This document shows positions 1 through 63,812 of a DNA stretch of 64,000 bases, in pieces (positions within the stretch are counted from its first letter, which is position 1; the number at the start of each line of letters is the position of its first letter). The notes below the pieces were generated by a model. The model ran no database searches and had not been told where the DNA came from. It was given only the letters and a program-made list of their open reading frames with translations. Made by a program: the position numbers and the translations under genes. Origin of the DNA: Triglochin maritima (taxonomy: Eukaryota > Streptophyta > Magnoliopsida > Alismatales > Juncaginaceae); assembly GCA_963682175.1 (NCBI GenBank), contig OY821784.1:31973621-32037620 (forward strand), read 5' to 3'.

Positions 1-237
1 GATATACTTTTTTTGTTGTATTTGGCTTACCACGTGTTAGTTATCATAGATTTTTTACATTTAAGTTTAAGATTTTCTTTCTGGACATTTTGTGCACCGC
101 ATGGATTTTCGGCTAGTATAACAAGCATAAAAGTTTGAAAGGGAAGCTAAACTGTTGTATTGTTAGAAACTCCAACAATTTTACACACATTAGACATTCG
201 TCTCAACTACTACTTCAAGAGTTTACAAGACCATTAA
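1..237. other. Host flank left of the retrotransposon nest
   Basis: AT-rich single-copy-looking DNA with no convincing coding region. It ends at ATTAA (233-237), the left target-site duplication of E1; the right copy is ACTAA at 59452-59456. Before E1 inserted, this stretch lay next to the sequence now at 59452, so it is distal upstream DNA of the HSP70-16-like gene. A CACGTG G-box core lies at 31-36, but one hexamer is weak evidence of regulation. Confidence 0.6.
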
Positions 238-704
238 TGTGAGATCCTAATCCTAATTGTGCCTTAATGATGTTTAGGTGGTGATTAGGAGGAGATGAGA
301 TGAACGGCTGAGATGGGGTGTTGGTGGATGAGGGGTTGAGATGGATTGGAGATGGAATGGATGGTGAGGACTGAAGGAGTGGTAGATATTTATGGTGAGC
401 TCTCTCTCTTCCTCTCTCACAACTCTATCATTCTCTCCCTCACGTTTCTCTCTCTCTCTCAGTGGTGCTCCGGCGAGGAAGAAGAGGTGATCTCCTGCGA
501 AGGGAGGATCGACACGAGTGGTGGTTGGAGGTGAGTTCGTGGTTTTGCCAACTCGTTCCTTTGCTTTGGTTCTCTCTCTCTCTCTCTCAACCTTACTCGT
601 GTTCTGTGGTCGTGGTGGTTGGAGGTTGACAGAGGTGATGGAGTGCTTGAGGTTGTCGAGAGGGTGTTGATCGTGGTTTTGACGCAAGGTTCGTTGACGG
701 ATCG
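238..704 (+). repeat. E1 5' LTR, left part
   Basis: Matches 57169-57624, the start of the E1 3' LTR, almost base for base, including the TCTCTC-rich tract and the block starting GTGAGATCCTAATCC. It is cut at 704/705 by E2, whose left TSD is GATCG (700-704); the LTR resumes at 44819. The small open frames in both orientations here are by-products of the purine/pyrimidine-rich LTR. Confidence 0.92.
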
Positions 705-1878
705 TGATGCATTGCAAACATTGCATCATATGTCTTTCATTTAGATTAATTTTATATCAATAAATGCTACTAAGGTATGTGTTTAGTCTTATTTACAGAA
801 TACAGGGACCTGAATGCAAATTACCCATATCCCGAGCATCAATGCATGCAAGAGACTCATTTCTATCATAAAGACCAAGTTCAAGATTATCCGGGTTCTA
901 ATGTAAGTCCATCGAAGCATAAAAGCAATCAAAGACCTAATTACAAAAAGGTCAGTGACTTAATTGCAAAAAGCCGAGGACCCGACTGCAAATTACGAGT
1001 ACCAAAATATTTTGGAAAAGTTCTAAAGAAAAATCAATTTGGATCTCCAAATATATAAAGAATTAATTCGGAGCTCAAAAGAAATGAAAGAAATCAATCC
1101 AGACGCGCAACGGACAGCTAAAACATACCATAAACACAGAGAAAAAATCCGGATCGAATCTGAGCCAAAAAGGTGGCGATTCCGCCGCACCGCATGTACA
1201 AACGGCGGCAGATTAGCCGCACAAAAGTCGATCCCTGCGCTCAAATTTTTACCAATGTTGTATTGACGCGTGTACTTTTCTTTTATGTATTGGGATCCCT
1301 TGTATCGGCTATAAATAGCCCCGAAATTATGTTGTAAAGACGTTCTTCTTTTTATTCCATTATTTAGCAATAAAGTTCTGTTATTTTATTTTGTGTTTTT
1401 AGTTTTCTTTTGTAGTTTCTCTAGGATCACTTCTCCTTCCCTCCATCCATGAGTTTCTAACTCTCTCAAACGGGTGGGGGTGACAGATTTAGGGTGATGA
1501 GAATAAGAATGATGTTATTATTTTAATTTTGTGTTAGTATATTTTGATTACTTGAGTTTATGTTGAATCATTTATCATGTAATGCTTTATAACTAATGTG
1601 ATTTATTATAAGTTTCAGAATTCTCTAAACAAAACCCGATATCTAATCCCCCACCCGATGGACTCTTATCCATCTTTGGTTTATTTTTAATTTGTTTTTG
1701 TTGTTCTTGCTTTAGAAATTTAAAATCCAAAAATAACAAACCAACCTTATTTTTCTCTCTTTCTTCCCTTAATCAAAAATCACAAAAATATAAGAATCTC
1801 TCCCTCCTTGTGTTCGACCCGTACTTGCCGCGTCTTCATCGACGTCGTGCACTTGCAGTATAAATAAAAGTCTCTTCA
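705..1878 (+). repeat. E2 LTR-a (outer 5' LTR)
   Basis: 1174-bp LTR starting TGATGCATTGCAAACA and ending TCTCTTCA. TATAAATA is at 1310-1317 and AATAAA near 1370, so U3/R/U5 order is visible. A GGCG-ATTC-CGCC hairpin lies at 1175-1186, upstream of the TATA box. It is homologous along its length to LTR-b, LTR-c, LTR-d, LTR-e and the E6 LTRs. It is followed not by internal sequence but by a tRNA copy and a second LTR. Confidence 0.92.
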
Positions 1879-1884
1879 AGTTTT

Positions 1885-1953
1885 TGGCGCCGTTGCCGGG
1901 GATCGAACCCGGTTCACCTGCGTGACAGACGGGAATACTCACCACTATACTAC
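1885..1953 (-). pseudogene. tRNA-Asp(GTC) copy trapped between two LTRs
   Basis: The complement of 1885-1953 reads as a plant tRNA-Asp from nucleotide 7 through the 3' CCA: D-arm, GTC anticodon arm and T-arm with GGGTTCGATCC are recognisable. Only about the first six nucleotides of the mature tRNA are missing, and I count three substitutions against the plant sequence as I know it. Its 3' end lies exactly where the 18-nt PBS begins after an LTR, six bases downstream of the LTR end, as in the normal PBS at 3120. It is therefore best read as a reverse-transcribed primer tRNA, not a nuclear tRNA gene. It lacks the 5' acceptor strand and should not fold into a functional tRNA. Confidence 0.9.
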
Positions 1954-3113
1954 TGCATTGCATCATATGTCTTTCATTTAGATTAATTTTATATCAATAA
2001 ATGCTACTAAGGTATGTGTTTAGTCTTATTTACATAATACAGGGACTTGAATGCAAATTACCCATATCCCGAACATAAACGCGTGCAAGAGACTCATTTC
2101 TATCATAAAGACCAAGTTCAAGATTATCCAGGTTCAAATGGAAGTCCAACCAAGCATAAAAGCAATCAAAGACCTAATTACAAAAAGGTCAGGGACTTAA
2201 TTGCAAAAAGCCGGGGACCCGACTGCAAATTACGAGTACCAAAATATTTTGGAGAAGTTCTAAAAAAAATCGATTTGGATCTCCAAATATATAAAGAATT
2301 AATTCGGAGCTCAAAAAAAGGAAAGAAATCAATCCAGACGCGCAACGGACAACTAAAACATATCATAAACACACAGAAAAAATCTGGATCGAATCTGAGC
2401 CAAAAAGGTGGCGATTCCGCCGCACCCCATGTACAAAATGCGGCGGATTAGCTGCACAAAAGTCGATCCGTGCGCTCAAATTTTTACCAATGTTGTATTG
2501 ACGCGTATACTTTTCTTTTATGTATTGGGATCCCTTGTATCGGCTATAAATAGCCCCGAAATTATGTTGTAAAGACGTTCTTCTTTTTATTCCATTATTT
2601 AGCAATAAAGTTCTGTTATTTTATTTTGTGTTTTTAGTTTTCTTTTGTAGTTTCTCTAGGACCCCTTCTCCTTCCCTCCATCCATGAGTTTCTAACTCTC
2701 TCCAACGGGTGGGGGTGACGGATTTAGGGTGATGAGAATAAGAATGATGTTATTATTTTAATTTTGTGTTAGTATATTTTGATTACTTGAGTTTATGTTG
2801 AATCATTTATGATGTAATGCTTTATAACTAATGTGATTTATTATAAGTTTCAGAATTCTCTAAACAAAACCCGATATCTAATCCCCCACCCGATGGACTC
2901 TCATCCATCTTTGCTTTATTTTTAATTTGTTTTTGTTGTTCTTGCTTTAGAAATTTAAAATCCAAAAATCTCAAACCAACCTTATTTTTCTCTCTTTCTT
3001 CCCTTAATCAAAAATCACAAAAATATAAGAATCTCTCCCTCCTTGTGTTCGACCCGTACTTGTCGCGTCTTCATCGACGGCGTGCACTTGCGGTATAAAT
3101 AAAATTCTCATCA
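1954..3113 (+). repeat. E2 LTR-b (inner 5' LTR)
   Basis: 1160-bp LTR homologous to LTR-a but starting TGCATTGCATCATATG, so the first three bases (TGA) of the E6-type LTR start, or about a dozen of the longer type, are missing at the junction with the tRNA copy. It ends TTCTCATCA. TATAAATA and AATAAA are conserved near 2545 and 2605. It is followed by a normal PBS and leader, so it is the functional 5' LTR position of E2. Confidence 0.92.
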
Positions 3114-3119
3114 AGTTTT

Positions 3120-3137
3120 TGGCGCCGTTGCCGGGGA
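3120..3137 (+). other. E2 primer-binding site (tRNA-Asp)
   Basis: TGGCGCCGTTGCCGGGGA, complementary to the 3' 18 nt of plant tRNA-Asp, six bases after the LTR. After position 3137 the sequence departs from the tRNA, unlike the copy at 1885-1953. Confidence 0.93.
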
Positions 3138-4528
3138 GGCGACAAAGATTTTTTTTTATTTTGGTGATTTCGATTCTATTTAGTTTATCGTGTGCGCGAT
3201 CTAACTATTTGGGTTTGCGTTTCAGGAGACAACAGAGTGCGCGGCGAAATCCGGGCACATTTGGAGCAAGAAGGGCGGCGAAATCGCCGCATCCAAAGAA
3301 CAACTTTTGGCAAAATCGCCACACGTCTGGAGCATCTGGGCTTCAAACTTTTCTGGGGTCGTCTCCATCTCTGGGTGGACGCGTAGAGCAGCTGGAAATT
3401 TTCGAGAGCGGGTGGCGAACCCGACTGAGCATGCGTAGGTAACTTTTGTTGCCTTTTCCTCGTAATTTCTATTTTCGGAAAATTTCCTTTTTGTAGAACT
3501 GCACGTGTTAGGCTCAAATTCCATAATTGGCAATAATTCAACTCTGACCTAAAAATTGGCAAAATTAGAAGGACTTAGTGCATGCATCATATAGTGTTTT
3601 GTTTGCATTATTCTTGCTAAATTCTTGCAAATTATTTTTTGTTGAGGAGTGCTGGAGGCAAGGTACGTGCATGATTTTTATCGATTGCATTTAAGCATAT
3701 AATTTAGTTTGTATACAACCTTGCAATTGTCCCCCACTAAATACCAATGTTTGACTATCTTTTCTAGATTTAAGTTAAATTATCTTAAGGGCAACTCCAT
3801 AGGAAAAGATAGTGGGGATTTCATCACCCTTTCGTGGCCCACAAATAACAATCCCAAAGTGTCACCCAAGCCTTAAATTAAAATCAATTAGACATTGGCC
3901 CCTAAGGATTCAGACTCAATTAAGGAGAAGATTGGTTTGACTTGCTATGACTTGAAGCTGATCGAATTTAATTTGGTATCTAGAAAGTGTTTTTGTGTTG
4001 ACGTAAGTCTTCAGAGCGAAGTGGTTGTCTAATTGGCACCGACTCTGTCGGAAGCGCCCCCACTAGCTATACATTGCCTGGCCAATTTGGTTTGATTAGT
4101 GAGGGAGGTGAATCAAGCAAACCAATTCGACTCAACAAGTTAGAAGTCGTCTAGATCTAAGCTACATTAGGTCTAGGATTGTTTGAACCGTGCTTGTTTA
4201 GGAAACTTCTGACCAACCCTCTCATCTATCTTTTAGAGTTAAGTTTCCCTTCTCATCTGAGTCTTCTTTATCTTCTCATCTCAATTCTCTAGATTATGAT
4301 TCCTTTCTCATCTTCCCCCCCCCCCCTTTCTATTGTTTGTTTCCATTTTTGAGAAAAAAATCAATTGATTCTTGAATTTGAATTTGGAATTTGAATTCAA
4401 AAATTAATTCAAACCGGTGCACTTATATTTGGGTTCGGGACTTGAGCAATCGACTCTCACGAGTTCATCTAGATTCCAGTCTAGAGCTCAACCCCAATCC
4501 ACATGTTGCACCACCTCACCCGGATCCA
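3138..4528 (+). promoter_or_regulatory. E2 leader with hairpin and conserved block
   Basis: 1.4-kb untranslated leader between PBS and gag. It holds a perfect hairpin GCGGCG-AAAT-CGCCGC (3275-3290), an AAG|GTACGT sequence near 3660 that looks like a splice donor, and a block from about 3788 to 4210 (GTGGGGATTTCATCACCC, GACATTGGCCCCTAAGGA, then GGATTGTTTGAACC) that recurs in the leaders of E3, E5 and E6. A run of C lies near 4315-4327. Small frames here are not convincing genes. The conserved block is a candidate packaging or translation signal (inference). Confidence 0.6.
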
Positions 4529-4562
4529 ATGGGTGAGAATGTAGTGGACCCACCTGTTGCAC
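4529..4562 (+). pseudogene. E2 gag unit 1, N-terminal fragment
   Basis: ATG at 4529 opens a frame reading MGENVVDPPVA, the same start as the E5 gag at 36486. It is cut after eleven codons by E3, which duplicated TGCAC (4558-4562 and 30224-30228). Gag resumes at 30229. An in-frame ATG at 4391 upstream is possible but less likely, because the E3 gag aligns from the inner ATG. Confidence 0.8.
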
Positions 4563-4930
4563 TGATTGACATCATTTCATGCTCATATTTGTATCTTATA
4601 TCCATTATCTTTCACCTAAATAATGCTATGTCACGAGTTTTATGTTTAGTTTTCAGGAATAAATAGGTTTGAAGAGATGAAGGATAAAAAGACCTAAAAG
4701 CTGGGAAAAGGACTGAATTGTGAGATCTAGGGACCAAGATGCAAGGGAGAAGGACCTGAACGCAAGACAGAAGGACCTAAGAGCAAACCAGAATACTCCA
4801 CACCATCATGGGGAGTATTTTGGCAATTCTATTCGGGTCGGAGCTCCAATAAACGAAGTAGATGCATCTAAGACCACCAAATACACTAAGCAAAACCCAG
4901 CACAAATTCCCGATGGATCCGGACTTTTTA

Positions 4931-4969
4931 GACCGCCGATTGGCGGTCCAAGACCGCTAATGGGCGGTC
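4931..4969 (+). promoter_or_regulatory. Two GC hairpins in E3 U3
   Basis: GACCGCC-GATT-GGCGGTC (4931-4948) has perfect 7-bp arms and a 4-nt loop; GACCGC (4952-4957) pairs with GCGGTC (4964-4969) across a 6-nt loop. The 3' LTR keeps only one fused unit near 12172-12188. Two similar hairpins occur in the leader at 6132-6173. Function unknown. Confidence 0.8.
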
Positions 4970-5046
4970 ACGTTTGGCCCAAATCCGCTAAGATTTCTCT
5001 GGGTTACGTATTAGTGTATATTTAGTCCATTTTTGGTATTGGTTTA

Positions 5047-5097
5047 GTCCCACATCGGGGGATTGTCCCGGCTTGCCTTGTTCCATGGCTATAAATA
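5047..5097 (+). promoter_or_regulatory. E3 LTR promoter: USE-like motif plus TATA box
   Basis: GTCCCACATCG (5047-5057) matches the consensus RTCCCACATCG of the upstream sequence element of plant snRNA genes. TATAAATA starts at 5090, leaving 32 nt between them. The 3' LTR preserves motif and spacing (12266-12276, TATA 12309-12316). In plant snRNA genes a gap of this size belongs to the Pol II class (U1, U2 and similar), shorter gaps to Pol III. The TATA call is firm; USE function is inferred from sequence and spacing only. Confidence 0.7.
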
Positions 5098-5981
5098 GAA
5101 CTCTTCACCTTCCATTGTAATCACTCCATATTTTAAGTGGCTATTCTTCCTACTATAAGTGAGGCCTTGAAGCACACACTAAAGTAGAAGGATGCTACTT
5201 GAAATGTGAGTCATTTTATCAATAAAGTTTTGTGTTTCTTTCATTGTTTGTTTATGCTTCTTTTATTGTTTGTGCATGTTTTAGTTTAATCGTCTTTTAT
5301 TTCTAGCTTAGTTTTAATATGCTTTCTTTGCTTAGTTTAATAATTAGTGTAATATTTAGTGAGTAGTTCCATCCCCTTTGGGGGGGTGGAGTAGATGTAC
5401 ATACATGCATTAGAGAATGGGATGAATGCTTTATTTTTGATGTGTTGATAAAACATGAATGTATGTTTGCTTGTTTAGCATAGAATTTATAACTTGATGA
5501 GTTTTGCCAAAATGATTAGACACCTCTCATGCTTGTTTAGGTTCTGAAATAAACAACTTGCATATGTAAATGTTAATCAACTAAGTTGGTGAATAGATTG
5601 ATAGGTTTTGCCATAACATTTAGACACTTCCTATGCTTGATAAACACCACCTTCATGTGCTTAAAGAATGTATTCTACACCCACCTCTTTTCATATGTGC
5701 ACTCACTCCACCCCTTAGGGGTTTTCCCATTTCTGTATTCCAGCATTCTTCTTTTGTTCTTAGCTTAGTTGTCATTTCATTGTTTGTTTCTTTCGGTCGC
5801 ATTTCAAACTTCTTAGAGTAGTTTAGTGTAGAGTAGCATAATCAATCTTTCTCCCCCAATTTTTGCCACTTGATTTCGTACAAGCAAGAGGCTACTCACC
5901 TCCCTGAGGACGACCCGTACTTGCCACCGCTTTATCGCGGTCGTGCACTTGCGGTTTAAATTAAAACGTTCAACAAGTTTT

Positions 5982-5999
5982 TGGCGCCGTTGCCGGGGA
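5982..5999 (+). other. E3 primer-binding site (tRNA-Asp)
   Basis: TGGCGCCGTTGCCGGGGA, six bases after the end of the LTR, identical to the E2 site. Confidence 0.93.
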
Positions 6000-7197
6000 G
6001 GTGCCAGTCCAGACTCTTGTTTGGACGATTCGAGTGGATTTAATTTGTGTTTTGTAGTTTTTCTTTGTTTTAGGAGACTGCGAATAGCAAATGGAGGCTA
6101 CTGGAGAAATTTCCAGACGACCTGAGCACTTCAGACCACCAATCGGCGGTCTGAGACCGCCAATCAGCGGTCTGGAGAGATCTGTTTATCTTTTAATTTC
6201 TTTCTGTTGTTGCTCTAAATAATCTAGTTATCTGGGACTCAATTTGGCATGTTTTGACTTATAGTTCGTTCCCAGATCAATAATCAAACCTCCTTTAAGC
6301 AACTTGGACCCTAAAACTCAAACCAAAAGACTAGGCATTCTTTCTTGTTTAGGTCATGCACCATGTATGTGACTTAAGCATTTAGATTGTCTTTTATTTT
6401 AGCTTTATTTTCAGTTTCTGAGTGCTGGCGTGAGGTACGCACCTTCTACTCTCATTCATGCATTTCGTATGACATGCATTAGTTAGTAGGAAGTGCATTG
6501 CAACAAGTGTGAGTTGAGCGTTGTTTGGAGAGTTGATTGTTATATTTAGGACTCCAAAATGCTACTAAGGAGGGGCTGTCCCGTAAAAGATAAGGTGGGG
6601 GATTTCATCACCCTTTCCTTCGCCCCAAAAACCACACTAATCAAGAGCCTAATTTCTAAAATCAAGTAGACATTGGCCTTAAGGAATTCGGACGTATTAG
6701 GAGAGTGATCCGGTCCCGACCGTCATAACCTGATCGGCGTTGCCTACTTTGTTGATAATAGGAGAGACGAGATCCCCAGATCTTGACTCACTTGCTGGGC
6801 TTTGTGGTCCTCATCATAGGGAGGTGAGGCGTGTTGAAGCCGCGTGACCTCGCAGTTAGGCGTCGTCTAGCTGTAAGGACCTATAGCGACCTTAGGATTG
6901 CTTGAACCTTGTTTGCTTGTGTGCTTCTACTTGTACCCATCCGCCGTAGCATAAGGACTTCTTCCCTTCTCTCCTGAGTCATTCTTTCTCTCCTGTGTTC
7001 CCTAGTCTTCTCTTCTACGTACATTCTTTGTTTGAAAAAAAAGGAAAAAAAAGAGTTTTTTTGTGTGTGCACCATTGTGCTTGCTTTCGTGGACACGAGA
7101 CGAGAGTGGTCGTTTGACGAGGAGCGTTGTCAATCCGGCTTCGGTCATCGATTTCTCGACGCCTTCCTCCTCTCGTGTCGTACGTAGTTCGGGTCCA
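6000..7197 (+). promoter_or_regulatory. E3 leader with two hairpins and conserved block
   Basis: 1.2-kb leader. Hairpins: 6132-6153 (9-bp arms with one mismatch, loop AATC) and 6174-6193 region AGACCGC/GCGGTCT (perfect 7 bp); both share the GACCGCC/GGCGGTC sequence of the LTR hairpins. The block from about 6568 to 6930 (GGTGGGGGATTTCATCACCC, GACATTGGCCTTAAGGA, GGATTGCTTGAACC) is homologous to the leaders of E2, E5 and E6. GAG|GTACGC near 6434 is a possible splice donor at the equivalent place. Confidence 0.6.
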
Positions 7198-10191
7198 ATG
7201 GCTGCTAATTTCCGTGAGGAGGAGCAGTTGCTGGACCCGCCTGCTCGACCTGTTCTTCCAGTTGTCGTTCTCATACCTCTTCGTGATCGATGCTACCCGA
7301 GCCGTACCGCTCTACCCTCGTGCATCGTATTACCAGAGGCTAAAAGGAACCATTTTGAGGTTAAGCCTCAATTCATTTCCATGCTCCCTCGCTTCACTGG
7401 GAAAAGTGACCCCTATATCTTTCTCACGGAATTTGAGGAGGTCTGTGCTATGTTCAAGTTGCAACAACTTAGCACAGACTCCATCCATCTTAGGCTCGTT
7501 CCTTTCGCATTAAAGGATGATGCCAAGAAGTGGTTGTACAGCAACCAGGCGAATTCCTTTAGGACTTGGGATGAGTTTCAATCTGCATTCCTCAAGAAGT
7601 ACTTTCCAAATCATCGGACTCAAAAATTAAGGAACGAAATCAATTCGTTCTATCAACATGAGACCGAACCATTTCATGCATATCTAGAGAGGTTCAAAGA
7701 GCTACTATCCTCGTGCCCTCACCATGGCATTGAGTTGTGTCATCTTTGTCAGATTGTTTACGAAGGTCTTCACATCCCGTCAAGAACGCTCCTTGAGTCC
7801 ATGTGTCAAGGAGAGTTCTTGGGAAATGATGAAACGGAGGCATGGGCCTTCCTAGAAGACCTCGCTGAGAAAACCATGCAATGGGAGAGTGTGAGGGAAC
7901 CACCTGCATCATCTAGCATAGGAGCAAGGATCGCGAATGCAAACTCGACTAGATCGGGTGCCGCATTTGTCGTCGATACCACTACGGCCACCGAGGCGCG
8001 CATGGCAGCCTTAATGCGCCGTATGGATTCGATTGAGCTCCAAAACCAACATGGTGCACCTCACATGTCCACATCTGGTCCAGTTCCCTGTCATTCATGT
8101 GGTAGGATAGGTCATGTAGAAAGCGAGTGTTAGTCCATTCCTCCTGAGATGGAGCGTGTCAACGCCATCTATGATAGAGCCAGGAATGACCCATACTCAT
8201 CATCTTATAATCCTGGATGGAGGAACCACCCCAATGTTTCATGGAACCAAACTAATGCCCCGGGTGGTCCTTCAAACTCCTCTAGACCACATTACCAATC
8301 ACATCAACCTCCCATGCATGCACATTCCTATCAGCCACCCCAAGCGCAAACCACCAATCAGTCGGGTTTCCCAAATTCCAATAATATGGAAACCCGATTC
8401 AATTCGCTTGAGACCTTAACTCGTGGACTTGAAAACTCAATGAAAATTTTTATGTCAACTACGAGTCAAGTTCTCACTTCCAATCAGCAGACCATCAAAT
8501 CTCTAGAGCTTCAGATGGGCCAATTGGCTCAGTCTGTACATGAAAGAGAGAGATGGTCTTTTCCTAGCCAGTCTGAGGCTAACCCCCGTGTGTACCAGCA
8601 ACAACACATACAAAATGAGAATGTGGTACCTCGGGGGAGGCAAGTGAACCGTGTGGAGGAACCTGTTCACCATGTCAATGCCATTGTTACCTTAAGGAAT
8701 GGAAAACAAGTTGACAATCACATTTCCTTGCCACACCCACCACCATCTATGCAGCCCCTCAGTGGGATTGGTGGTGAAGAAGAAGCTGAGAGTGAGGGTA
8801 ATACACCAACGCTTCTTTCTTCTCAGGCACCGCAGAAAACCTACATTCCAAAAGCTCCCTATCCAAGTAGGTTAACCAAAAAGCAGAGTGACAACATGGA
8901 CAAGATATTAGAGGTGTTTAAGCAAGTAAAGGTTAACATCCCCTTGTTGGATGTCATCCAACAAATACCTCAATATGCCAAAGTGTTGAAGGATCTCTGC
9001 ACAACCAAGAGGAAGACCAATGTTCCTAAGAAAGCATTCTTGGCTGCAAATATCAGCTCACTTTTGTCCAATCCTACCTACACAAAATACAAGGACCCTG
9101 GGTGTCCTACTATTCAGTGTACGATAGGGGACACTAGAATGAGCAATGTTTTGCTTGATTTAGGATCAGCGGTCAACCTCCTCCCATTCTCTATTTATAA
9201 ACAGTTGAACTTGGGAGAATTGAAACCAACGAAGATCACCCTCCAATTGGCGGATAGATCCATTCGTATTCCCATGGGGATTAATGAGGATGTGCTTATC
9301 AAAGTTGGAGATTTTATATTTCCAGTCGATTTTGTTGTCCTTGATACCAATCCTGTTGCGAACACCCACTCTCAAATACCTTTGATTTTGGGTAGACCAT
9401 TTCTGGCAACCTCCAATGCCTTGATTAATTGTAGAAATGGTCTCATGAAGCTCTCATTCGGTAACATGAGTGTCGAGTTTCATGTGTTCAACTCTGGTAA
9501 GCAACAAGAACCCATGGATGAACCTTTAAATCTAAATCTCATCCGCCAATTGGAGAAAGCACCACAGAATCAACGAACACCCCTAACCCAAATGCAACCC
9601 GTTGAGAATGTTCGTGGGCCCAGCGAAAACTCATTGCCTGTCTTCGCAATGCAACAGAGTGAGCTGGCCTCGAACATGAATGTCGAAAGGGAGTGTTCGT
9701 TGCATGATTCAGTTGAGAGTACTAGTGAGAGTGAGACACCTCATCATATGCCTATACCAGAAGGTATCTCTATCTCATGTCCCATGGACATTGAGCCATT
9801 TGAGCTTCATATTGACTCCAACAAGGACCCACCTATGACCGAGCTTATGCTTGATGATCTAAATGATGGTGGGAGGTCCTTGTTGGATGACTTGGGGAGA
9901 AACCTCATTCTTAGTGATGCAGGTCTGCTGCATCCATCGAATGAGCATGAGGAACTCATTCCGATGCACCCGCCTATTGGTTGGAGGGTTTTGTTTGATG
10001 AGCAACTAAACCCTAGTGAGGCAACACAACTTCATTCTTTGTTTCCCACACCCAACCAATATCATGAGGGGTTCGAGCCGTTCAGCTTTGACCTTTCACC
10101 CCTCATGACACCTCAGAGTACCAGTGAAGTTTGCACATCTCAGCAAGTCTCTGGTCCTCAAAACTTGATGTTCTCATTTGATGTTCCTTGA
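7198..10191 (+). pseudogene. E3 gag-protease polyprotein (one internal stop)
   Basis: One frame of 998 codons interrupted only by TAG at 8131-8133, probably CAG to TAG. The start at 7198 is chosen because the Gag aligns with the E5 start (DPPA then LRDRCYP); the frame itself opens further upstream. The Gag capsid region of Retrotrans_gag type spans roughly residues 70-200 (FALKDDAKKWLY, FLKKYFPNHRT). A CCHC knuckle, CHSCGRIGHVESEC, lies just before the stop. The aspartic protease follows with active site LLDLGSAVNLLP and ILGRPFLAT; DLG[AS] in place of DTG/DSG is usual for Athila proteins. After the protease comes a tail of about 230 residues with IGWRV and MFSFDVP motifs, shared with E6. No RT follows. 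Confidence 0.9.
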
Positions 10192-11801
10192 CCAAATGAT
10201 TATGAGAATATCTTGGTTGATGTATATATCTTGTAAAAAACACAAAGAAAAACAAAAACAAAAAAAAGAAAAAAAAAGAAAAAAAAAGTGTGTAATAAAA
10301 GACTCCTTCAGTGAGCATCGATTGTTGTGGGTCCCAAGCCTTGTGTACTTGGGCCCACTTCCTTCACGTATTTATGTCCCTTCTTCAGCTTCTCACAGGT
10401 TTTGAGGGAATTTGGGTTTGTGTCCATCAACATGACCCTGAACGTCCCTTTGTACTTCATGTTGGTGAGATCTTTCCTTTTTCATGCATATATCCATGTA
10501 GTATCTTGTTTACATTCATTGAGGACAATGCATGAAGTAGGTGTGGGGGGTGTTTTACGTGTGTACATAGTCGAGTCTTTTCTTTTGATTTTTTTGTTTT
10601 CTTTTGTGTGCATTGTTAGGGTCATGTTAGTGTGCCGCATTTAATATCGATATATCTGTTTGCCATGATCCTTGGGTAACTTGTCTTCTTTTGCTTGCCT
10701 AGTGCTTTAAAGTTTTCACATTTCTTTCCAAATCTTCATGTGTTTGCGAAAGAAAATGTTTTTGTGGGTTTTGCGTGTGTTTAGCATGTGCAAAACCATT
10801 GAGAGGCAAAGTAAAAAGAAAGCTCCCAAAATTGTCTTGAACTTGATGCATTAGGATTTTTGGTTTACTGGCTTTAGGTCTTATCGAGTCGTTAGGATGC
10901 ACCCTGGTTTTCCCTCGGGGGGCGTGTAATCATAGGGTTTCAGCACTCAAACATTTAAAGAAGTCCACCCTGAACCTAGTGAGTCAAATAATTCGTGTTT
11001 GTTAGTATAAGGAAGTTTGTCGTAGTCAAGGGCCCTTAATTTCTTTTTGTGAAACTTAAGTGTAGGGGTTTTGGTTCCCATGTAGATAAATGAATAAGTG
11101 GTGTTCTCTCTTCTCGCACGGCTCCTATCACTCGGGAAAGTAGGTCTGAGGGGCCTTTGTGCCTGGTGCTTTCGAGTCATCTGACATGGGATGCACCGAC
11201 CAAACTCCCGTTACTCGGGTGGTAGGGATCGCCCTATGTGGAGATTTCGGGGAAGGTGTACGTGATAGTGTAAGTCCTCATAGGCAATGATGCACGAAAC
11301 CCGACCCTGGGAGAATCAAACACCAACCAATAAAATGCTCCAAAGAAAAAAAAAGAAAAAAAGAAGAAAAGAAAAAAAGAGTCAAATAAGAACCAAAATG
11401 GACTTTACACATTGTATCACATTCAGAAGTTAAGGTTGCCCATGTCTTTCACTCAAGTCCTTAACTAACTTTCACGAATAACTAATTAGGCTAGGTGTGT
11501 GGATCGATTACATACAGAGAGTCGACCCGTAGTGTTACCGCGTCCCATGATCGACAAAATGAGTCCAACGAGTCGTGTAGCTAGATTGATTAATGCATCT
11601 TGTTCGGATTTTGTGGGTGTATCCGATGAAAACCCTCAGGAGACAACACTCCTCCTCCTTGGCGACAGGGAGGTTTAACGGCTTGTTGCACGTGCTAACT
11701 GCAACCGTGATTCCTACGAAAGTGAGGATTTCTTGTTTTTCGCATGCTTTTCTCTTTCTTTGTTTTGCTCGGGACTAGCAAAAGTTAGGTGTGGGGGTAT
11801 T
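10192..11801 (+). other. E3 3' untranslated region with two polypurine tracts
   Basis: 1.6 kb. Starts with an A-rich tract, then TTGAGGACAATGCATGA followed by AGGTGTGGGGGGTG (10539-10552), an internal PPT-like tract found at the same place in E2 and E5. The terminal PPT AGGTGTGGGGGTA (11788-11800) abuts the 3' LTR. A second A-rich tract lies near 11345-11385. The short ORF at 11559-11678 is listed separately. No RT, integrase or env-like frame is present. Confidence 0.75.
11559..11678 (+). CDS. Conserved short 3' ORF of E3
   Basis: 39-codon frame ending SDFVGVSDENPQETTLL...GDREV and TAA. E5 has a longer version (39716-39919) with the same end, and E2 has a degraded one near 43455-43516. The conserved stretch continues past the stop as GGCTTGTTGCAC.TGCTAA.TGCAACCGTGATTCCTACGAAAG, so the constraint could be at RNA rather than protein level. 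No known family recognised. It lies between the internal and terminal polypurine tracts. Confidence 0.4.
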   Translation: MSPTSRVARLINASCSDFVGVSDENPQETTLLLLGDREV

Positions 11802-12365
11802 TGATTGACATCATTTCATGCTCATATTTGTATCTTATATCCATTATCTTTCACCTAAATAATGCTATGTCACAAGTTTTATGTTTAGTTTTCAGGAATA
11901 AATAGGTTTGAAGAGATGAAAGATAAAAAGACCTAAAAGCTGGGAAAAGGACTGAATTGTGAGATCTAGGGACCAAGATGCAAGGGAGAAGGACCTGAAC
12001 GCAAGACAGAAGGACCTAAGAGCAAACCAGAATACTCCACACCATCATGGGGAGTATTTTGGCAATTCTATTCGGGTCAGAGCTCCAATAAACGAAGTAG
12101 ATGCATCTAAGACCACCAAATACACTAAGTAAAGCCCAGAGACAAATTCCAGATGGATCCGGACTTTTTAGACTGCTAATTGGCGGTCACTTTTGGCCCA
12201 AATCCGCTAAGATTTCTCTGGGTTACGTATTAGTGTATATTTAGTCCATTTTTGGTGTTGGTTTAGTCCCACATCGGGGGATTGTCCCGGTTTGCCTTTT
12301 TCCATGGCTATAAATAGAACTCTTCACCTTCCACTGTAATCACTCCATATTTTAAGTGGCTATTC
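11802..12365 (+). repeat. E3 3' LTR, left part
   Basis: Matches 4563 onward, with the USE and TATA retained but one hairpin unit deleted. Interrupted by E4 after TATTC (12361-12365); the LTR continues at 29396 after the second TATTC. Confidence 0.93.
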
Positions 12366-14487: not shown

Positions 14488-14488
14488 G

Positions 14489-14500
14489 TGGTATCAGAGC
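14489..14500 (+). other. E4 primer-binding site, copy 1
   Basis: TGGTATCAGAGC one base after the LTR end, complementary to the 3' end of initiator tRNA-Met. Copy 2 is at 21939-21950. Confidence 0.9.
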
Positions 14501-19458: not shown

Positions 19459-19818
19459 CCGAGGGCTGTTTTGATGCAATTTTTATAGGAATTCTAGACA
19501 ATAAGAGGTTGGAGTGATGATGCGTCATCATTATCGAAGGTGGAGGTATGAGCTAGTGTAGTTAGGAGTAATATCACTACAGCTAACTCAACCACCAACG
19601 AAAGACAAAATAAATAAATAGGTGGACACAACAGTGACACAACTGATCCATTCAACAAACCTTCATACCAAGCTAAGAGACGAAATATATTTCGAGTCCA
19701 TGGATCCGAGGATCCATGTGGATTGGCTTGATAGGTGATTTAGGAAGGTTACCCTAGTTATTAATGTTTTATACATTGAGAATGTATGTGAAATAAACTT
19801 TGATAACAAGTGGGAGAT
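19459..19818 (+). other. E4 3' untranslated region and PPT, copy 1
   Basis: Non-coding tail ending in the polypurine tract AAGTGGGAGAT (19808-19818) directly before LTR2. Copy 2 occupies 26909-27268. Confidence 0.75.
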
Positions 19819-26908: not shown

Positions 26909-27268
26909 CCGAGGGCTGTTTTGATGCAATTTTTATAGGAATTCTAGACAATAAGAGGTTGGAGTGATGATGCGTCATCATTATCGAAGGTGGAGGTATG
27001 AGCTAGTGTAGTTAGGAGTAATATCACTACAGCTAACTCAACCACCAACGAAAGACAAAATAAATAAATAGGTGGACACAACAGTGACACAACTGATCCA
27101 TTCAACAAACCTTCATACCAAGCTAAGAGACGAAATATATTTCGAGTCCATGGATCCGAGGATCCATGTGGATTGGCTTGATAGGTGATTTAGGAAGGTT
27201 ACCCTAGTTATTAATGTTTTATACATTGAGAATGTATGTGAAATAAACTTTGATAACAAGTGGGAGAT
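26909..27268 (+). other. E4 3' untranslated region and PPT, copy 2
   Basis: Copy of 19459-19818, ending AAGTGGGAGAT before LTR3. Confidence 0.75.
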
Positions 27269-30223: not shown

Positions 30224-30228
30224 TGCAC

Positions 30229-32623
30229 CACCTAGGACTCTGAGGGATCGGTGCTGCCCAACGATGGCTGTTCAGCCATCGTGCATCGTTATGCCCACCA
30301 TACCGGGTCGCGAATTCGAACTAAAGGCACATTACATTAGTATGTTGCCCAAGTTCACCTCTAAGGAAGACACATATCTGTTCCTTAGAGAATTTCAGGA
30401 AATCTGCTCCCTTATGCAATACCAGCATATCTCTGTGGAGGCAGTGAGTCTTAAATTCGTGCCACTAGCACTGAAGGACGACGCTAAGAAATTGTTATAT
30501 AGTCTAGCTGAAAGATCTATTAGGAGTTGGGCCGAGTTTGTTCAAGTGTTCTTTAAAAAATATTTCCCCAACCATAAGACTAGTAGGATTAGGAATGAAA
30601 TTGTTGCATTCGTTCAATCTGAGAGTGAGCCATTTTATTCCTATTTAGAAAGATTTAAAAGTCTGTTGACCCAATGCCCTCATCATGGAATTCCAAGATG
30701 ACAATTGTGCCAAATTATTTATGAGGGATTGACACCTACATCTAGGGTTATGGTAGAATCTGTAAGCCAAGGAATCTTCATGTCCAAAAATGAGAATGAT
30801 GCTTGGACTTTTCTTGAGAATTTAGCCGAAAATAGTATGCAATGGGACATTGCTAGAGCACTGAATAACTCGAGTATTGGATCTAGAATAGCAAGTCAAC
30901 CAGGTGTCTTAGCTGTAGATGCTACTGTAGCTGCTGAAGCAAAACTAGCTACCCTTATGCGTAGAATGGAAAGTCTAGAGCTAAAAACCCGACCCCTAGT
31001 GAATCAAGCCTCTTCTATCCCTTGCTCTAGATGTGGTCAAACTGGTCATATAATGGAGGATTGTGCGGACGTGGAACAAGTTAATGCTGCATTTAACCAT
31101 TCTAGAGATGACCCATACGCATCAACCTATAACCCGTGTTGGCGTAATCATCCCAATCTTTCATGGAACAAAAAGGTCAACCTCCTAGACAACAACCAAA
31201 CTCGTATAACAAAAATAATACATCATCTGGGTTTAGTAACAATGGAGATTATGATGTTAGGTTGACTAGCTTGGAAAATTTGGTTAAAACTTTTATGCAA
31301 ACAACCACCCAATCCTTCCACAGGCTAGAAACACAGGTCAGCCAACTAGCACAAATTGTAGGTGAAAGAGAAAAGGGTCAGTTTCCAAGTCAACCTGAGG
31401 TGAATCCAAGACCTAATAATCAATATCAGCCCTATCAACCACCTCTAGGAAGTAACAACCCTAGACCGGTTCAAATGGTTAATGAGGAATGACTGTTCCA
31501 ACAAATAAATGCAGTAGTATCATTACGGTCTAGAAAACACGTTGATAACAATGTGGTAAATCCTAAGGATCCTAATCAATCTAGCCGTCAAGCACCCACA
31601 CGTGACCTGACCATTGAACCTGAAGTCCAATTTGAAAAGCCCAACACACCTACTCAACCTGACCCTATAGCTCAACCTAAGCGAGTCTATGTTCCTAAAG
31701 CCTCATTCCCCAATAGACTCAAGAAGAGCTCAAGTGCACAAATGGAGAAAATCTTGGAAGTATTTAAGCAAGTTAAGGTGAATATTCCACTCCTAGATAT
31801 GATTCAACAAATACCTGCTTATGCTAAATTCTTAAAAGATCTGTGCACTAAAAAGAGAAAAACAAACGTACCAAAGAAGGCATTCTTAACTGCAAACATA
31901 AGCTCTATTCTGTCAAACTCGTCTCCTATAAAGTATAAGGACCCTGGGTGTCCCACAATTTCATGTGCGATAGGAGATACTTTTATCAACAAAGACCTTT
32001 TAGACGTTGGTGCTAGTATTAACTTACTCCCGTTCTCTGTCTATGAGCAACTAAACCTTGGTCCACTAAAACCCTCTAAGACAACCCTTCAATTTGCTGA
32101 TTGCTCTATTAAGAAACCAAGAGGTATAGTAGAGGATGTTTTGATTAAGGTTGGTGACTTCATTTACCCAGTGGATTTTGTCATTCTAGACACTGAACCA
32201 GTTGTCAATCCTAAGAAACAAATCCCTGTAATACTAGGCAGACCCTTTTTAGCCACTTCTGAAGCTTTGATAAATTGTCGAAATGGGCTAATGCAACTAT
32301 CTTTTGGAAACTTAAAAGCTGAATTTAATATCTTTCATGTTGATAATGAACCAGAAATAGTATGCAATCAAAGTGATGTTGTGATGAGATCGCGTATCTA
32401 TAAGATTTCTGAATCAAATAAATCATCAGAAAATCAGAAAGAAAGTGAGAAAAAGGGGAGTAATTCATCTACCCACCCACTATCACTCGAGCAAATAAGA
32501 AAACAAATACATGTGAGGGGTGTGGAATCTGTGCCTCAGGACTCTCAGTGCAACATGGGGAACAATTCAACTGGATACATGCACCAACATGGTGACATTC
32601 AATCCAATTTTGACTATGGTTGA
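30229..32623 (+). pseudogene. E2 gag-protease unit 1 (rest)
   Basis: Continues the gag cut at 4562. Retrotrans_gag region (FVPLALKDDAKKLLY, FFKKYFPNHKT), then TGA at 30699-30701 where E5 has TGG (PRWQLCQ). The CCHC knuckle CSRCGQTGHIMEDC follows near 31025. A frameshift lies near 31165 (AACAAAAAGGTCAA against AACCAACAAGGTCAA in E5) and TGA at 31490 replaces GGA. The protease is open at 31553-32623, but its active site reads LLDVGASINLLP; the flap ILGRPFLAT is intact. The 100-residue tail resembles E5 and lacks the GWRV motif of E3/E6. Dead. Confidence 0.88.
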
Positions 32624-32873
32624 CACTGAACAAATTCAACCCCTCTAGCGCAAGTTGACTCAGGTAATAAGTGCATTTGCTTTATCTTTGCATACATTGA
32701 GGACAATGCATGATTTAGGTGTGGGGGGTGTTTATCTATCTATCTGTTTTATTTTTGGTTTAAAAAAAAATAAAAAAAATCAATGTTTCATGACATAGCT
32801 TAAGATTGAACTGTCAAAACCCATGTACAAATTGCATTGAGTTTTTGTTCCTTATTATATAGTTCTGCTTGTG
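32624..32873 (+). other. E2 3' untranslated region, unit 1, with internal PPT
   Basis: TTGAGGACAATGCATGA precedes AGGTGTGGGGGGTG (32716-32730), the internal polypurine-like tract. The UTR breaks off at about 32873, where GCTTGTGGAAAT switches to gag sequence again; in the other elements about 0.8-1 kb more would follow before the 3' LTR. Confidence 0.8.
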
Positions 32874-33809
32874 GAAATCTGCTCCCTTATGCAATACCAG
32901 CATATCTCTGAGGAGGCAGAGCGTCTTAAATTCGTGCCTCTAGCATTGAAGGACGACGCTAAGAAATGGCTATATAGTCTAGCCGAAAGATCTATTAGGA
33001 GTTGGGCCTAGTTTGTTCAAGTATTCTTAAAGAAATATTTCCCCAACCATAAGACTATTAGGATTAGGAATGAAATTGTTGCATTCGTTCAATCTGAGAG
33101 TGAGCCGTTTTATTCCTATTTAGAAAGATTTAAAAGTTTGTTGACCCAATGCCCTCATCATGGAATTCCAAGATGACAATTGTGCCAAATTATTTATGAG
33201 GGATTGACACCTACATCTAGGGTTATGGTAGAATCTGTAAGCCAAGGAATCTTCATGTCCAAAAATGAGAATGATGCTTGGACTTTTCTTGAGGATTTAG
33301 CCGAAAATAGTATGCAATGGGACAATGCTAGAGCACCGAATAACCCGAGTATTGGATCTAGAATAGCAAGTCAACCCAAACCAGGTGTCTTAGCTGTAGA
33401 TGCTACTGTAGTTGCTAAAGCAAAACTAGCTACCCTTATGCGTAGAATGGAAAGTCTAGAGCTAAAAACCCGACCCCTAGTGAATCAAGCCTCTTCTATC
33501 CCTTGGTCTAGATGTGGTCACACTGGTCATATAATGGAGGATTGTGCGGACTTGGAACAAGTTAATGCCGCATTTAACCATTCTAGAAATGACCCATACG
33601 CCTCAACCTATAACCCGGGTTGGCGTAATCATCCCAATCTTTCATGGAACCAAAAGGTCAACCTCCTAGACAACAACCAAACTCGTATAACAAAAATAAT
33701 ACATCATCTGGGTTTAGTAACAATGGAGATTATGATGTTAGGTTGACAAGCTTGGAAAATTTGGTTAAGACTTTTATGCAAACAACCACCCAATCCTTCC
33801 AAAGGCTAG
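32874..33809 (+). pseudogene. E2 gag unit 2, left part (tandem duplicate)
   Basis: A second copy of gag starting inside the capsid region (GGAAATCTGCTCCC, equal to 30399 onward). It shares with unit 1 the TGA for TGG at PR*QLCQ and the frameshift after the CCHC, so these lesions predate the duplication. It has its own TAG near 33008 (SWA* for SWAE), and the CCHC's second C is mutated (WSRCGHTGH). Interrupted by E5 after GCTAG (33805-33809). Confidence 0.88.
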
Positions 33810-35037: not shown

Positions 35038-35043
35038 AGTTTT

Positions 35044-35061
35044 TGGCACCGTTGTCGTGGA
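35044..35061 (+). other. E5 primer-binding site, mutated
   Basis: TGGCACCGTTGTCGTGGA, three changes from the tRNA-Asp complement seen in E2 and E3. The changes probably arose after insertion. Confidence 0.8.
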
Positions 35062-41265: not shown

Positions 41266-42517
41266 GCTAGAAACACAAGTCAGCTAACTAGCACAAATAG
41301 TAGGTGAAAGAGAAAAGAGTCAGTTTCCAAGTCAACTTGAGGCGAATCCAAGACCTAATAATCAATATTTGCCCTATCAACCACCTATAGGAAGTAACAA
41401 CCCTAGACCGGTTCAAATGGTTCATAAGGAGGGATCGTTCCAACAAATAAATGCAGTTGTATCATTACGGTCCGGAAAGCAAGTTGATAACAATGTGGTA
41501 AATTCTAGGTTTCCTAATCAATATAGTCGTCAAGCACCCACATGTGACCTAACCATTGACCCTGAAGTCTAATTTGAAAAGCCCAACCCACCTAGTCAAC
41601 CTGACCCTATAGCTCAACTTGAGCGAGTTTATGTTCCTAAAGCCCCATTCCCCAATAGACTCAAGAAGAGCTCAAGTGCACAAATGGAGAAAATCTTGGA
41701 AGTATTTAAGCAAGTTAAGGTGAATATTCCACTCCTAGATATGATTCAAAAAATACCTGCTTATGCTAAATTCTTAAAGGATCTGTGCAGTAAGAAGAGA
41801 AAAACGAACGTACCAAAGAAGGTATTCTTAACTGCAAACATAAGCTCTATTCTGTCCAACTCGTCTCCTATAAAGTATAAGGAGCCTGGGTGTCCCACAA
41901 TTTCTTGTGCGATAGGAGATACTTTTATCAACAAAGCCCTTCTAGACCTTGGTGCTAGTGTTAACCTACTCCCATTCTCTGTCTATGAGCAACTAAACCT
42001 TGGTCCACTAAAACCCTCTAAGACAACCCTTCAATTTGCTGATTGCTCTGTTAAGAAACCAAGATGTATAGTAGAGGATGTTTTGATTAAGGTTGGTGAT
42101 TTCATTTACCCAGTGGATTTTGTCTTTCTAGACACTGAACATGTTGTCAATCCTAAGAGACAAATCCTTGTAATACTAGGCAGACCCTTTTTAGCCACTT
42201 CTGAAGCTTTGATAAATTGTCAAAATGGGCTCATGCAACTATCTTTTGGAAACTTAAAAGCTGAATTTAATATCTTTCATGTTGATAGTGAACCAGAAAT
42301 AGTATGCAATCAAAGTGATGTTGTGATAAGATCGCGTATCTATAAGATTTCTAAATCAAATAAATCATCACAAAATCAAAAAGAAAGTGAGAAAAATGGG
42401 AGTAATTCATCTACCCAACCACCATCACTCGAGCAAATAAGAGAACCAACACATGTGAGGGGTGTGGAATCTTTACCTCAGGACTCTCAGGGCAGCATGG
42501 GGAACAATTCAAATTGA
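41266..42517 (+). pseudogene. E2 gag-protease unit 2, right part
   Basis: Resumes after E5 with the second GCTAG. TAA near 41286 (QVS* where E5 has QVSQ), TAG near 41568, then protease open at 41684-42517 with LLDLGASVNLLP and ILGRPFLATSEAL intact. The tail ends early at TGA 42515 (GNNSN*), where unit 1 continues a little further. Confidence 0.88.
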
Positions 42518-43645
42518 TACATGCACCAACATGGTGACATTCAATCCAATTTTGACTATGGTTGACTCAAAGCAAATTCAATCCCTCTACCACAGTTGAC
42601 TCAGGTAATAAGTGCATTTGCTTTATCTTTGCATACATTGAGGACAATGCATGATTTAGGTGTGGGGGGTGTTTATCTATCTATCTATCTATATATTCTG
42701 TTCGTTTAAAAATATAATTTTTTTAATGCTCTATGACATAACTTAAGATTGAACTGCCAAAACCCGTGTACAAATTGCATTAAGTTTTTGTTCATTATTA
42801 TATAGTTCTGCTTGTAGAAACTATGACATAAATCTAAGTTCCAAAGAAATAACCCATTACCTTTTAAGACATGTATGCACTTAAATTGGATGAATCAAAT
42901 CTTTGAAGTGGTTGATAAAAAGCAGAGGTTGAGGAAAATATACCGGGAAGTGTGGACTTCTAATAGCAATTAAGCCTTGAGGAAAATAAAAGTAAAAAAA
43001 TAAAGGAATAAAGTGAGGAAAGCACATTTTGCAAAATGATTACAAAAACTCAAGCCTTCGAGTCACTGGTCCGTAGGGGTATCTTAAAACCCGATAACTT
43101 GAGTCTACCAGCTCGGGATTATCGACCAAACTCGCTAAACGAACGCAAAAGGGTAAAAGTGTCAAATAAGCAAATTTGTTGAATCACGAGAAAAATACTC
43201 AAGGCCCAAAGTTAAAAGAATGATTCATGCCATGGTTGATCCGAATGATACTTCACCACCAGAGGCGGCGTCCAAAATAATTTAAGTGATAACATGTGTA
43301 GAAGGGTTAGTGGTGTGAATGTTGGAGGAACAAAGACCAAGTTAGAATTTTTATGAGTTAGATTTATATAATGAGCATGCAAGAATTCTAAGTAAGATGT
43401 ATAAGATTGAGATGGAGATATTGAGAGTTATTAATGAAATGTTGAATCAAGACTTTGTGGGTGTGTCAACTGAAAACCCTCATGAGACAAAACTCGTCCT
43501 CTAAGGAAACTTAGGGGTTTAAAGGCTTGTTGCACATGCTAAGTGCAATCGTGATTCCTACGAAAGTGAGTTAGGATTTCCCTGTTTTCATTTCTCTTAT
43601 ATTTTGTTTTGCTAGGGACTAGCAAAATCTAGGTGTGGGGGTATT
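42518..43645 (+). other. E2 3' untranslated region, complete copy
   Basis: Internal PPT AGGTGTGGGGGGTG (42658-42671), a TATC microsatellite after it, a degraded copy of the short ORF (DFVGVSTENPHET, TAA near 43502) and terminal PPT AGGTGTGGGGGTA (43631-43643) before LTR-e. Confidence 0.75.
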
Positions 43646-44818
43646 TGATGCATTGCATACATTGCATCACATGTCTTTCATTTAGATTAATTTTATATCA
43701 ATAAATGCTACTAAGGTATGTGTTTAGTCTTATTTACAGAATACAGGGACCTGAATGCAAATTACCCATATCCCGACCATAAACGAGTGCAAGAGACTCA
43801 TTTCTATCATAAAGACCGAGTTCAAGATTATCAAGGTTCAAATGGAAGTCCATCCGAGCATAAAAGCAATCAAAGACCTAATTACAAAAAGGTCACGGAC
43901 TTAATTACAAAAGGCCGAGACCCGACTACAAATTACGAGTACCAAAATATTTTGGAGAATTTCTAAAGAAAAATCAATTTGGATCTCCAAATATATAAAG
44001 AATTAATTCGGAGCTCAAAAGAGAGGAAAGAAATCAATCCAGACGAGCAAAGGACAGCTAAAACATACCATAAACACACAGAAAAAATCCGGATCGAATC
44101 TGAGCCAAAAAGGTGGCGATTCCGTTGCAACCCATGTACAAAATGCGGCAGATTAGCCGCACAAAAGTCGATCCGTGCGCTCAAATTTTTACCAATGTTG
44201 TATTGACGCGTGTACTTTTCTTTTATGTATTGGGATCCCATGTATCGGCTATAAATAGCCCCGAAATTATGTTGTAAAGACGTTCTTCTTTTTATTCCAT
44301 TACTTAGCAATAAAGTTCTGTTCTTTTATTTTGTGTTTTTAGTTTTCTTTTGTAGTTTCTTTAGGACACATTCTCCTTCTCTCCATCCATGAGTTTCTAA
44401 CTCTCTCCAAATGGTGGGGATGACGGATTTAGGGTGATGAGAAGAAGAATGATGTTATTATTTTAATTTTGTGTTAGTATATTTTGATTACTTGAGTTTA
44501 TGTTGAATCATTTATCATGTAATGCTTTATAACTAATGTGATTTATTATAAGTTTCCGAATTCTCTAAATAAAACCCGATATCTAATCCCCCACCCACTG
44601 GACTCTCATCCATCTTTGCTTTATTTTTAATTTGTTTTTGTTGTTCTTGCTTTAGAAATTTAAAATCCAAAAATCTCAAACCAACCTTATTTTTCTCTCT
44701 TTCTTCCCTTAATCAAAAATCACAAAAATATAAGAATCTCTCCCTCCTTTTGTTCGACCCATACTTGCCGCGTCTTCATCGACGCCGTGCACTTGCGGTA
44801 TAAATAAAATTTTCATCA
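43646..44818 (+). repeat. E2 LTR-e (3' LTR)
   Basis: 1173 bp, ends TTTTCATCA and is followed by TSD GATGG (44819-44823). TATAAATA and AATAAA conserved. Its hairpin is degraded (GGCGATTCCGTTGC). Confidence 0.92.
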
Positions 44819-44989
44819 GATGGTGATTTTGGGAGGCGTGCTCGTGGAAGCGCAGTCGTGGTTCTTCTAAGGTTTCTTCAAACCTTCTGGTATGTCAACT
44901 TCCTCACTTAAGTAGTGTGAGTATTTGGAAGTCGACGGTAGGCCTTCCGGCTCGTCGCAAGTAAACGTGCAGCAGATTTTATTGCTTGA

Positions 44990-45669: not shown

Positions 45670-45778
45670 TTGTGTCCAGTTTTGTACTATGGAGGTGCGG
45701 TTGTTGTGGTCGTCCGTGTGGGGCGAGTGGTGGTGTCGATGTTCTTCCGGCGAGTGTGCTAGGGTGCACGAGAGTTGC

Positions 45779-50812: not shown

Positions 50813-50818
50813 AGTTTT

Positions 50819-57168: not shown

Positions 57169-57790
57169 TGTGAGATCCTAATCCTAATTGTGCCTTAATG
57201 ATGTTTAGGTGGTGATTAGGAGGAGATGAGATAGACGGCTGAGATGGAGTGTTGGTGGATGAGGGGTTGAGATGGATTGGAGATGGAATGGATGGTGAGG
57301 ATTGAAGGAGTGGTAGATATTTATGGTGAGCTCTCGCCCTCCCTCTCTCATGACTCTCTCATTCTCTCCCTCACGTTTCTCTCCCTCTCTCAGTGGTGCT
57401 CCGGCGAGGAAGAAGAGGTGATCTCCGACGAAGGGAGGATCTGCACGAGTGGTGGTTGGAGGTGAGTTTGTGGTTTTGCCAACTCGTTCCTTTGCTTTGG
57501 TTCTCTCTCAACCTTACTCGTGTTATGTGGTCGTGGTGGTTGGAGGTTGACGGAGGTGTTGGAGTGCTCGAGGTTGTCGAGAGGGTGTTGAATGTGGTTC
57601 AGACGCAAGGTTCGTCGACGGATCGTGATTTTGGGAGGTGTGCTCGTGGAAGCACCGTCGTGGTTCTTCTAAGGTTTCTTCAAACCTTCTGGTATGTCAA
57701 CTCGCTCACTTAAGTAGTGTGAGTATTTGGAAGTCGACGGTCGGCCTTCCGGCTCGTCGCAAGTAAACGTGCAGTAGATTGTATTGCCTG

Positions 57791-63775: not shown

Positions 63776-63812
<37 letters not shown>

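Follow-up and report, generated by a model that had tools for sequence, protein, structure and literature searches.

Nested LTR retrotransposons make up most of the sequence read in the window, by which we mean the whole 64-kb stretch of DNA analysed (positions 1-9000, 28000-58000, and 58000-64000 were read directly, and 9001-27999 via repeat and ORF searches only). From its element types and its tRNA, the DNA looks plant-like. Near its start lies a compound element with three LTRs (LTR-a, LTR-b, and LTR-e), flanked by a target-site duplication (TSD) and interrupted by two nested elements. Between LTR-a and LTR-b, it carries a spacer, a primer-binding site, and tRNA sequence only. The features considered here are as follows.

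700..704, +: left TSD, gatcg
705..1878, +: LTR-a, starting TGATG and ending TTCA
1879..1884, +: spacer agtttt, from LTR-a to the primer-binding site
1885..1902, +: 18-nt primer-binding site, the complement of the tRNA-Asp 3' end including CCA
1903..1953, -: extension of the primer tRNA-Asp copy, from tRNA nucleotide 58 back to 7
1954..3113, +: LTR-b, directly adjoining the tRNA copy
3120..3137, +: ordinary 18-nt primer-binding site 3' of LTR-b
3138..4562, +: first part of the compound element's internal region
4563-30223: nested element inside the first internal part, TSD tgcac
30224..33809, +: continuation of the internal region, gag and protease-like, gag tandemly duplicated
33810-41265: nested element, LTR-c to LTR-d, TSD gctag
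41266..43645, +: remainder of the internal region as far as LTR-e
43646..44818, +: LTR-e, right end of the compound element
44819..44823, +: right TSD, gatgg, differing from gatcg at one base
57621..57625, +: empty paralogous target site, gatcg, without insert and without tRNA

The junction between LTR-a and LTR-b

Allowing up to three mismatches, we found five primer-binding sites in the 64-kb window, and the spacer that follows LTR-a is identical at the other four sites. tRNA homology ends after 18 nt at four of the five. At the remaining one it runs on: past the primer-binding site, antisense tRNA homology extends for 51 bases, up to tRNA nucleotide 7, and at base 1954 the match is over. 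The start of LTR-b can be read in two ways. It may begin at 1954, with three bases (TGA) missing and one 9-bp tandem unit lost, or at 1956, with its first 14 bases missing and a 2-base filler ahead of it. The loss of one of two 9-bp units has a parallel in LTR-f, which shows the same contraction. At the junction, the tRNA is thus 6 nt short of its 5' end and the LTR 3 (or 14) short of its own, and inspection of the sequence revealed no evident microhomology between the tRNA copy and LTR-b.

Identity of the tRNA copy

As an approximate yardstick we used a plant tRNA-Asp(GUC) sequence. Positions 1885-1953 agree with it at 65 of 69 positions, and the stretch past the primer-binding site (1903-1953) at 47 of 51. 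As a control, the letters of the first 6 kb were shuffled five times; on the + strand, which alone was scanned, the first 50 bases past the primer-binding site found a best match of 22-24/50. A soybean small RNA printed in PMC3519564 agrees with the first 24 bases of the yardstick. The Rfam tRNA family (RF00005) matches the minus strand at 1895-1953; its score of 32.4 bits exceeds the gathering score of 29, and no other Rfam match in the 64 kb reaches the gathering threshold. Hence, the identification as tRNA is independent of the yardstick. ARAGORN reported no tRNA gene in the window, and its blank at the tRNA copy is expected because nucleotides 1-6 are absent from the piece. An earlier note on this DNA had placed the end of LTR-a at 1878 and the primer-binding site six bases on, had seen 51 more bases of tRNA-Asp up to nucleotide 7 where the other elements stop after 18 nt, and had described LTR-b as lacking its first bases; the coordinates, the sequence agreement, the Rfam match, the other four primer-binding sites, and the 3 (or 14) missing bases bear out each of these points.

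In orientation and register, the copy corresponds to a primer attached at the U5 end. The complement of CCA (TGG) sits immediately after the spacer; plant nuclear tRNA genes are not known to encode CCA, and the tail therefore indicates that the source was a mature tRNA. No host sequence follows the tRNA, which abuts the LTR directly. The four differences from the yardstick fall at tRNA positions 20a, 31, 41, and 48 and have no clear link to modified bases. Compared with the 1.6 differences expected from LTR decay, 4/69 is an excess that is not significant (P 0.08). Both internal promoter boxes, the A box (1952-1942) and the B box (1909-1899), fit consensus patterns, the B box lying partly inside the primer-binding site, and there is a T run near the tRNA copy and U5 sequence. 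The tRNA copy folds no better than shuffled sequences (z 0.49; 140 of 200 shuffles fold at least equally well), so a working tRNA is not supported.

A single insertion and its empty site

The two TSD copies, gatcg and gatgg, are alike at four of five positions (the chance of at least 4/5 is 0.016). A second copy of the repeated host sequence, matched over 57169-59407, is empty at the insertion point, where it reads gacggatcg-tgattttggg. Because this empty copy has gatcg, the target was gatcg and one base has changed in the right TSD. The blocks that flank the insertion differ from the empty copy at 25/457 and 86/1868 aligned sites. The empty paralogous site therefore identifies LTR-a to LTR-e as one insertion with a 5-bp target duplication, made at a place with no prior tRNA.

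The insertion lies in repeated sequence that reads like the LTR of another gypsy element, presumably a chromovirus by the look of its ORFs. The sequence shared by the two host LTR copies extends past the LTR end (46655-46975 and 59462-59803; 92% over 342 columns). The "empty" copy is therefore not necessarily the second LTR of a single element; it may be part of a tandem or segmental duplication. These copies also contain minisatellite-like repeats of the ggttgggtgaaaaagccctggagcc type (45770-46260 and 58570-59065), with many cggtcgaccg-like motifs nearby. Farther on, at 59958-62560, are exons that we take, from their reading, to be those of a plant HSP70-family gene.

Divergence of the three LTRs

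LTR-a and LTR-b differ at 45/1161 sites (96.1% identity), LTR-b and LTR-e at 53/1160 (95.4%), and LTR-a and LTR-e at 63/1173 (94.6%), which makes a and e the least alike; all three are 14-22% different from the other four family LTRs in the window. A likelihood tree unites a and b by a branch of 0.0024 (support 68), with tips of 0.023, 0.015, and 0.031. All three groupings stay in the 95% confidence set of a topology test with 2000 replicates, which are few for an AU test. This near-star divergence suggests that LTR-a, LTR-b, and LTR-e were born about together. The mean tip corresponds to about 1.8 million years at a substitution rate of 1.3e-8 per site and year, or to about 3.5 million years at 6.5e-9.

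At 60 sites with different bases in a and e, LTR-b carries one of the two: it is a-like at 34 and e-like at 26. These states switch 28 times along LTR-b (shuffle P 0.40) and have no left-right order; on these figures, we rejected a left/right chimera of a and e as the make-up of LTR-b. Private changes number 25 in LTR-a, 15 in LTR-b, and 34 in LTR-e (p 0.026 for equality), and 13 of the 15 in LTR-b fall in its left half (p 0.007). Such uneven and clustered changes depart from a clean star and imply that rates differed or that LTR-b was partly converted later.

A second three-LTR element, of copia type, occupies 12366-29390 (TSD tattc; primer-binding site tggtatcagagc, which we take to be of the initiator-Met type). 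It sits in the 3' LTR (11806-12365 and 29391-30223) of the gypsy element at 4563-30223. Its middle LTR has no private substitutions and resembles C3 in its left part but C1 in its right part (2 exceptions in 20), a pattern such as unequal recombination would leave. LTR-b, with no left-right pattern, is unlike this middle LTR.

Internal region and relatives

The compound element has LTR ends TG...CA, a 5-bp TSD, and a primer-binding site after a short spacer. It contains a Pfam Retrotrans_gag domain (62 bits, cut-off 24.1) and an Asp_protease_2 match of 21 bits, below the cut-off of 24.3; a nested relative reaches 24.4. Between 30200 and 43700 there are nine ORFs of at least 120 aa, nested elements included. 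The Pfam scan covered four of the nine and returned gag, zinc-knuckle, and protease-type matches; no reverse transcriptase or integrase appeared in these four, and the other five were read by eye only. From its tRNA-Asp primer and gag type, we tentatively take the compound element to be Ty3/gypsy and Athila-like. It was probably mobilised by a relative.

A gag-protease segment is tandemly duplicated in the compound element (30394-32868, and 32869-33809 plus 41266-42820). The duplicates show 143 differences in 2474 aligned sites and a similarity of about 96% in the left part and 93% in the right part, giving the duplication an age similar to that of the insertion or somewhat older. In the nested LTR-c to LTR-d element, gag is interrupted by a 35-base U3-tip piece of the LTR (37395-37429) that starts exactly with TGATG and has aac on both sides. 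A further family member, at 49552-55069 (LTR-f and LTR-g, TSD cttta), lies inside the pol region of the host element; LTR-f begins with the short form, one 9-bp unit fewer, and the starts of LTR-f and LTR-g differ.

Neither the primer-binding site extended by six tRNA bases nor the tRNA-Asp body had an exact match in viral contigs. The gag of the nested relative likewise had no match there, and in genome contigs 17 stretches fit its pattern, none of them a relative. These zeros say little, since the contig collections scanned are viral, bacterial, and archaeal.

Discussion

The core of our best reading is that the compound element contains a copied primer and integrated once, and of this core we are confident. 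Orientation, primer-binding-site register, and CCA establish, from the sequence itself, a U5 end tipped with tRNA. Such an end most likely arose when a gypsy-type element was reverse transcribed from a tRNA-Asp primer and plus-strand synthesis ran past the usual 18 nucleotides to about primer nucleotide 7; the product was a U5 end carrying a tRNA copy at its tip. In HIV, according to the review PMC13191261, plus-strand strong-stop synthesis usually terminates ahead of methylated A58; a primer that lacks the modification is copied right to its 5' end in vitro, and in human cells a methyltransferase mutation leads to synthesis past A58. A comparable read-through took place here once.

A tRNA-tipped end should be no substrate for integrase. 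We suggest that the tip was joined end-to-end to a sister cDNA whose U3 end had been slightly trimmed. End joining is indicated by the absence of visible microhomology and by the closeness of the junction to a natural end on either side: a break that costs the tRNA 6 nt at its 5' end and the LTR 3 (or 14) is what the joining of two ends would be expected to leave. Integrase would then have inserted the compound molecule once, via its outer LTR ends, producing the 5-bp TSD gatcg. If the first cDNA was complete, it would subsequently have lost its internal region by LTR-LTR recombination; alternatively, only a terminal fragment was joined, which would also account for a lone LTR-a. What remained would be the form LTR-a-tRNA-LTR-b-internal-LTR-e, in which the tRNA piece decayed like the rest. 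No trace of an internal region once left of the tRNA was found at the locus, so the removal step is assumed, and this counts against our reading. We lean towards the whole path, end joining included, with less assurance than towards its core.

The earlier note had proposed copying past position 58, joining to the U3 end of another LTR by end joining or circle formation, and a single integration, which it derived from the TSDs around LTR-a and LTR-e. Copying past position 58, U3 joining, and single integration remain the best reading, and the last of these is now firm through the empty site at 57621-57625. Circle formation is unneeded, and it would not, on its own, be expected to give LTR-a and LTR-e as free ends. 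A linear joined cDNA trimmed by LTR-LTR recombination, or a plus-strand jump, seems to fit better than a circle.

The plus-strand jump would place the whole event in one reverse transcription, yielding a single cDNA with LTR-tRNA-LTR at its left end. A plus strand from the polypurine tract would copy U3-R-U5 and the tRNA to nucleotide 7, then jump onto minus-strand U3 and make a second LTR with the normal 18-nt stop, followed by an ordinary second transfer. On this course no later recombination is required, and the three LTRs are predicted to start out identical, which is close to what is observed; for plant insertions with three LTRs and TSDs, a proposal of abnormal template switching is on record (PMC1950507). 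However, the jump must land by chance within 3-14 bases of the LTR end, and at a junction with no microhomology. We regard it as possible but rather unlikely.

More doubtful is a history in two steps, in which an ordinary LTR-internal-LTR element inserted first and an unintegrated LTR-tRNA-LTR cDNA or circle later recombined into its 5' LTR. A retrovirus circle with tRNA between its LTRs is on record (PMC12220202), recombination of cDNA into resident copies is described in a review (PMC12786077), and the uneven private changes of the three LTRs leave room for it. Yet the cDNA of another or later copy should push one LTR clearly off the star, but the branch uniting a and b is just 0.0024 (support 68), with no grouping excluded.

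An origin from a genomic tRNA-Asp gene or pseudogene, with LTRs inserted beside or into it or recombined with it through the primer-binding site, is very improbable. Both promoter boxes fit the consensus, and recombination through 15-18 shared bases is conceivable; against this, spacer, CCA complement, and register all match a primer copy, ARAGORN lists no tRNA gene in the window, and the block lies inside one TSD. We set this origin aside because the empty site holds no tRNA. Long similar repeats are difficult to assemble, but it is just as improbable that the assembly falsely joined two LTRs over a tRNA read, given that LTR-a and LTR-b differ at 45/1161 sites, that the tRNA piece has four differences of its own from the yardstick, and that the outer ends fit one TSD.

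Several known systems resemble parts of the compound element. In the account given in PMC12220202, Colicelli and Goff (1986) found a tRNA-Gly copy, 4 nt short, between the LTRs of circular MMLV DNA. There too, a primer tRNA was copied nearly to its 5' end and lies between two LTRs, with four 5' nucleotides missing compared with six here. The MMLV case, as described there, is a cloned circle attributed to a spurious primer in virus with introduced mutations, whereas the compound element carries its cognate tRNA-Asp primer and is chromosomal, one insertion with a TSD in plant-like DNA. The same paper reports an HIV provirus beside a reverse-transcribed tRNA-Gly at its 3' LTR, 5 nt short. In both this case and ours, a mature tRNA was copied with its CCA and adjoins an LTR. 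By that account, however, the HIV example is a cell-line provirus, and its tRNA is non-cognate and outside the provirus; its authors proposed self-primed copying and independent insertion (PMC12220202). Also recorded there are tRNA pieces captured in nef of HIV variants (63 nt of tRNA-Asp or 65 nt of tRNA-Glu), and Neurospora mitochondrial retroplasmids with tRNA copies at their ends (PMC12220202).

Three-LTR complex retrotransposons within one TSD were described from grasses by Sabot and Schulman (2007; PMC1950507). Like the compound element, they combine three LTRs, one insertion, and one 5-bp TSD. They contain two complete internal regions, whereas the first "internal region" here is the copied primer alone, and their outer LTRs are highly alike, whereas a and e, at 94.6%, are our lowest pair. 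Helenus and other TRIMs have tRNA- or 5S-like sequence in the LTR (PMC10886601), and with Helenus the compound element shares tRNA sequence with Pol III-type boxes on a non-autonomous LTR element. By that account, the Helenus tRNA lies within the LTR, is attributed to SINE insertion, and has no match to the primer-binding site; in the compound element, unlike Helenus and TRIMp3, the tRNA is antisense, lies between LTRs, continues the primer-binding site, and equals the primer. Copied primers are not treated in the examined parts of the literature on an Echinococcus TRIM, HERV-K, and yeast circles.

The compound element unites an MMLV-type tRNA junction with a three-LTR insertion, with a cognate primer copied to six bases short of its end, inside one TSD. 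Among the open-licence papers searched, we found no plant or chromosomal case with a cognate primer, which is weak evidence, as subscription papers are mostly outside this set. The element preserves, in integrated and roughly datable form, a plus-strand stop that failed. As a single fossil it is of moderate interest, and of more if the event is recurrent. An LTR followed by spacer, primer-binding site, tRNA past position 58, and a second LTR makes a scannable signature if more exist, and scans of plant genomes could then give the frequency of read-through, its stop points, and any conversion to promoters or SINE-like elements.

An origin of SINEs from tRNA-primed strong-stop DNA is a long-standing proposal. 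Going by sequence features, we raise as a long shot that primer-tRNA copies may repeatedly enter chromosomes, placing a tRNA with Pol III boxes beside U5 and a T run. If true, this would be a direct natural route from the primer of an LTR element to a new tRNA-headed element, and the loss of 4, 5, and 6 tRNA 5' bases in the two cases from PMC12220202 and in the compound element, respectively, would mark a common copying end point.
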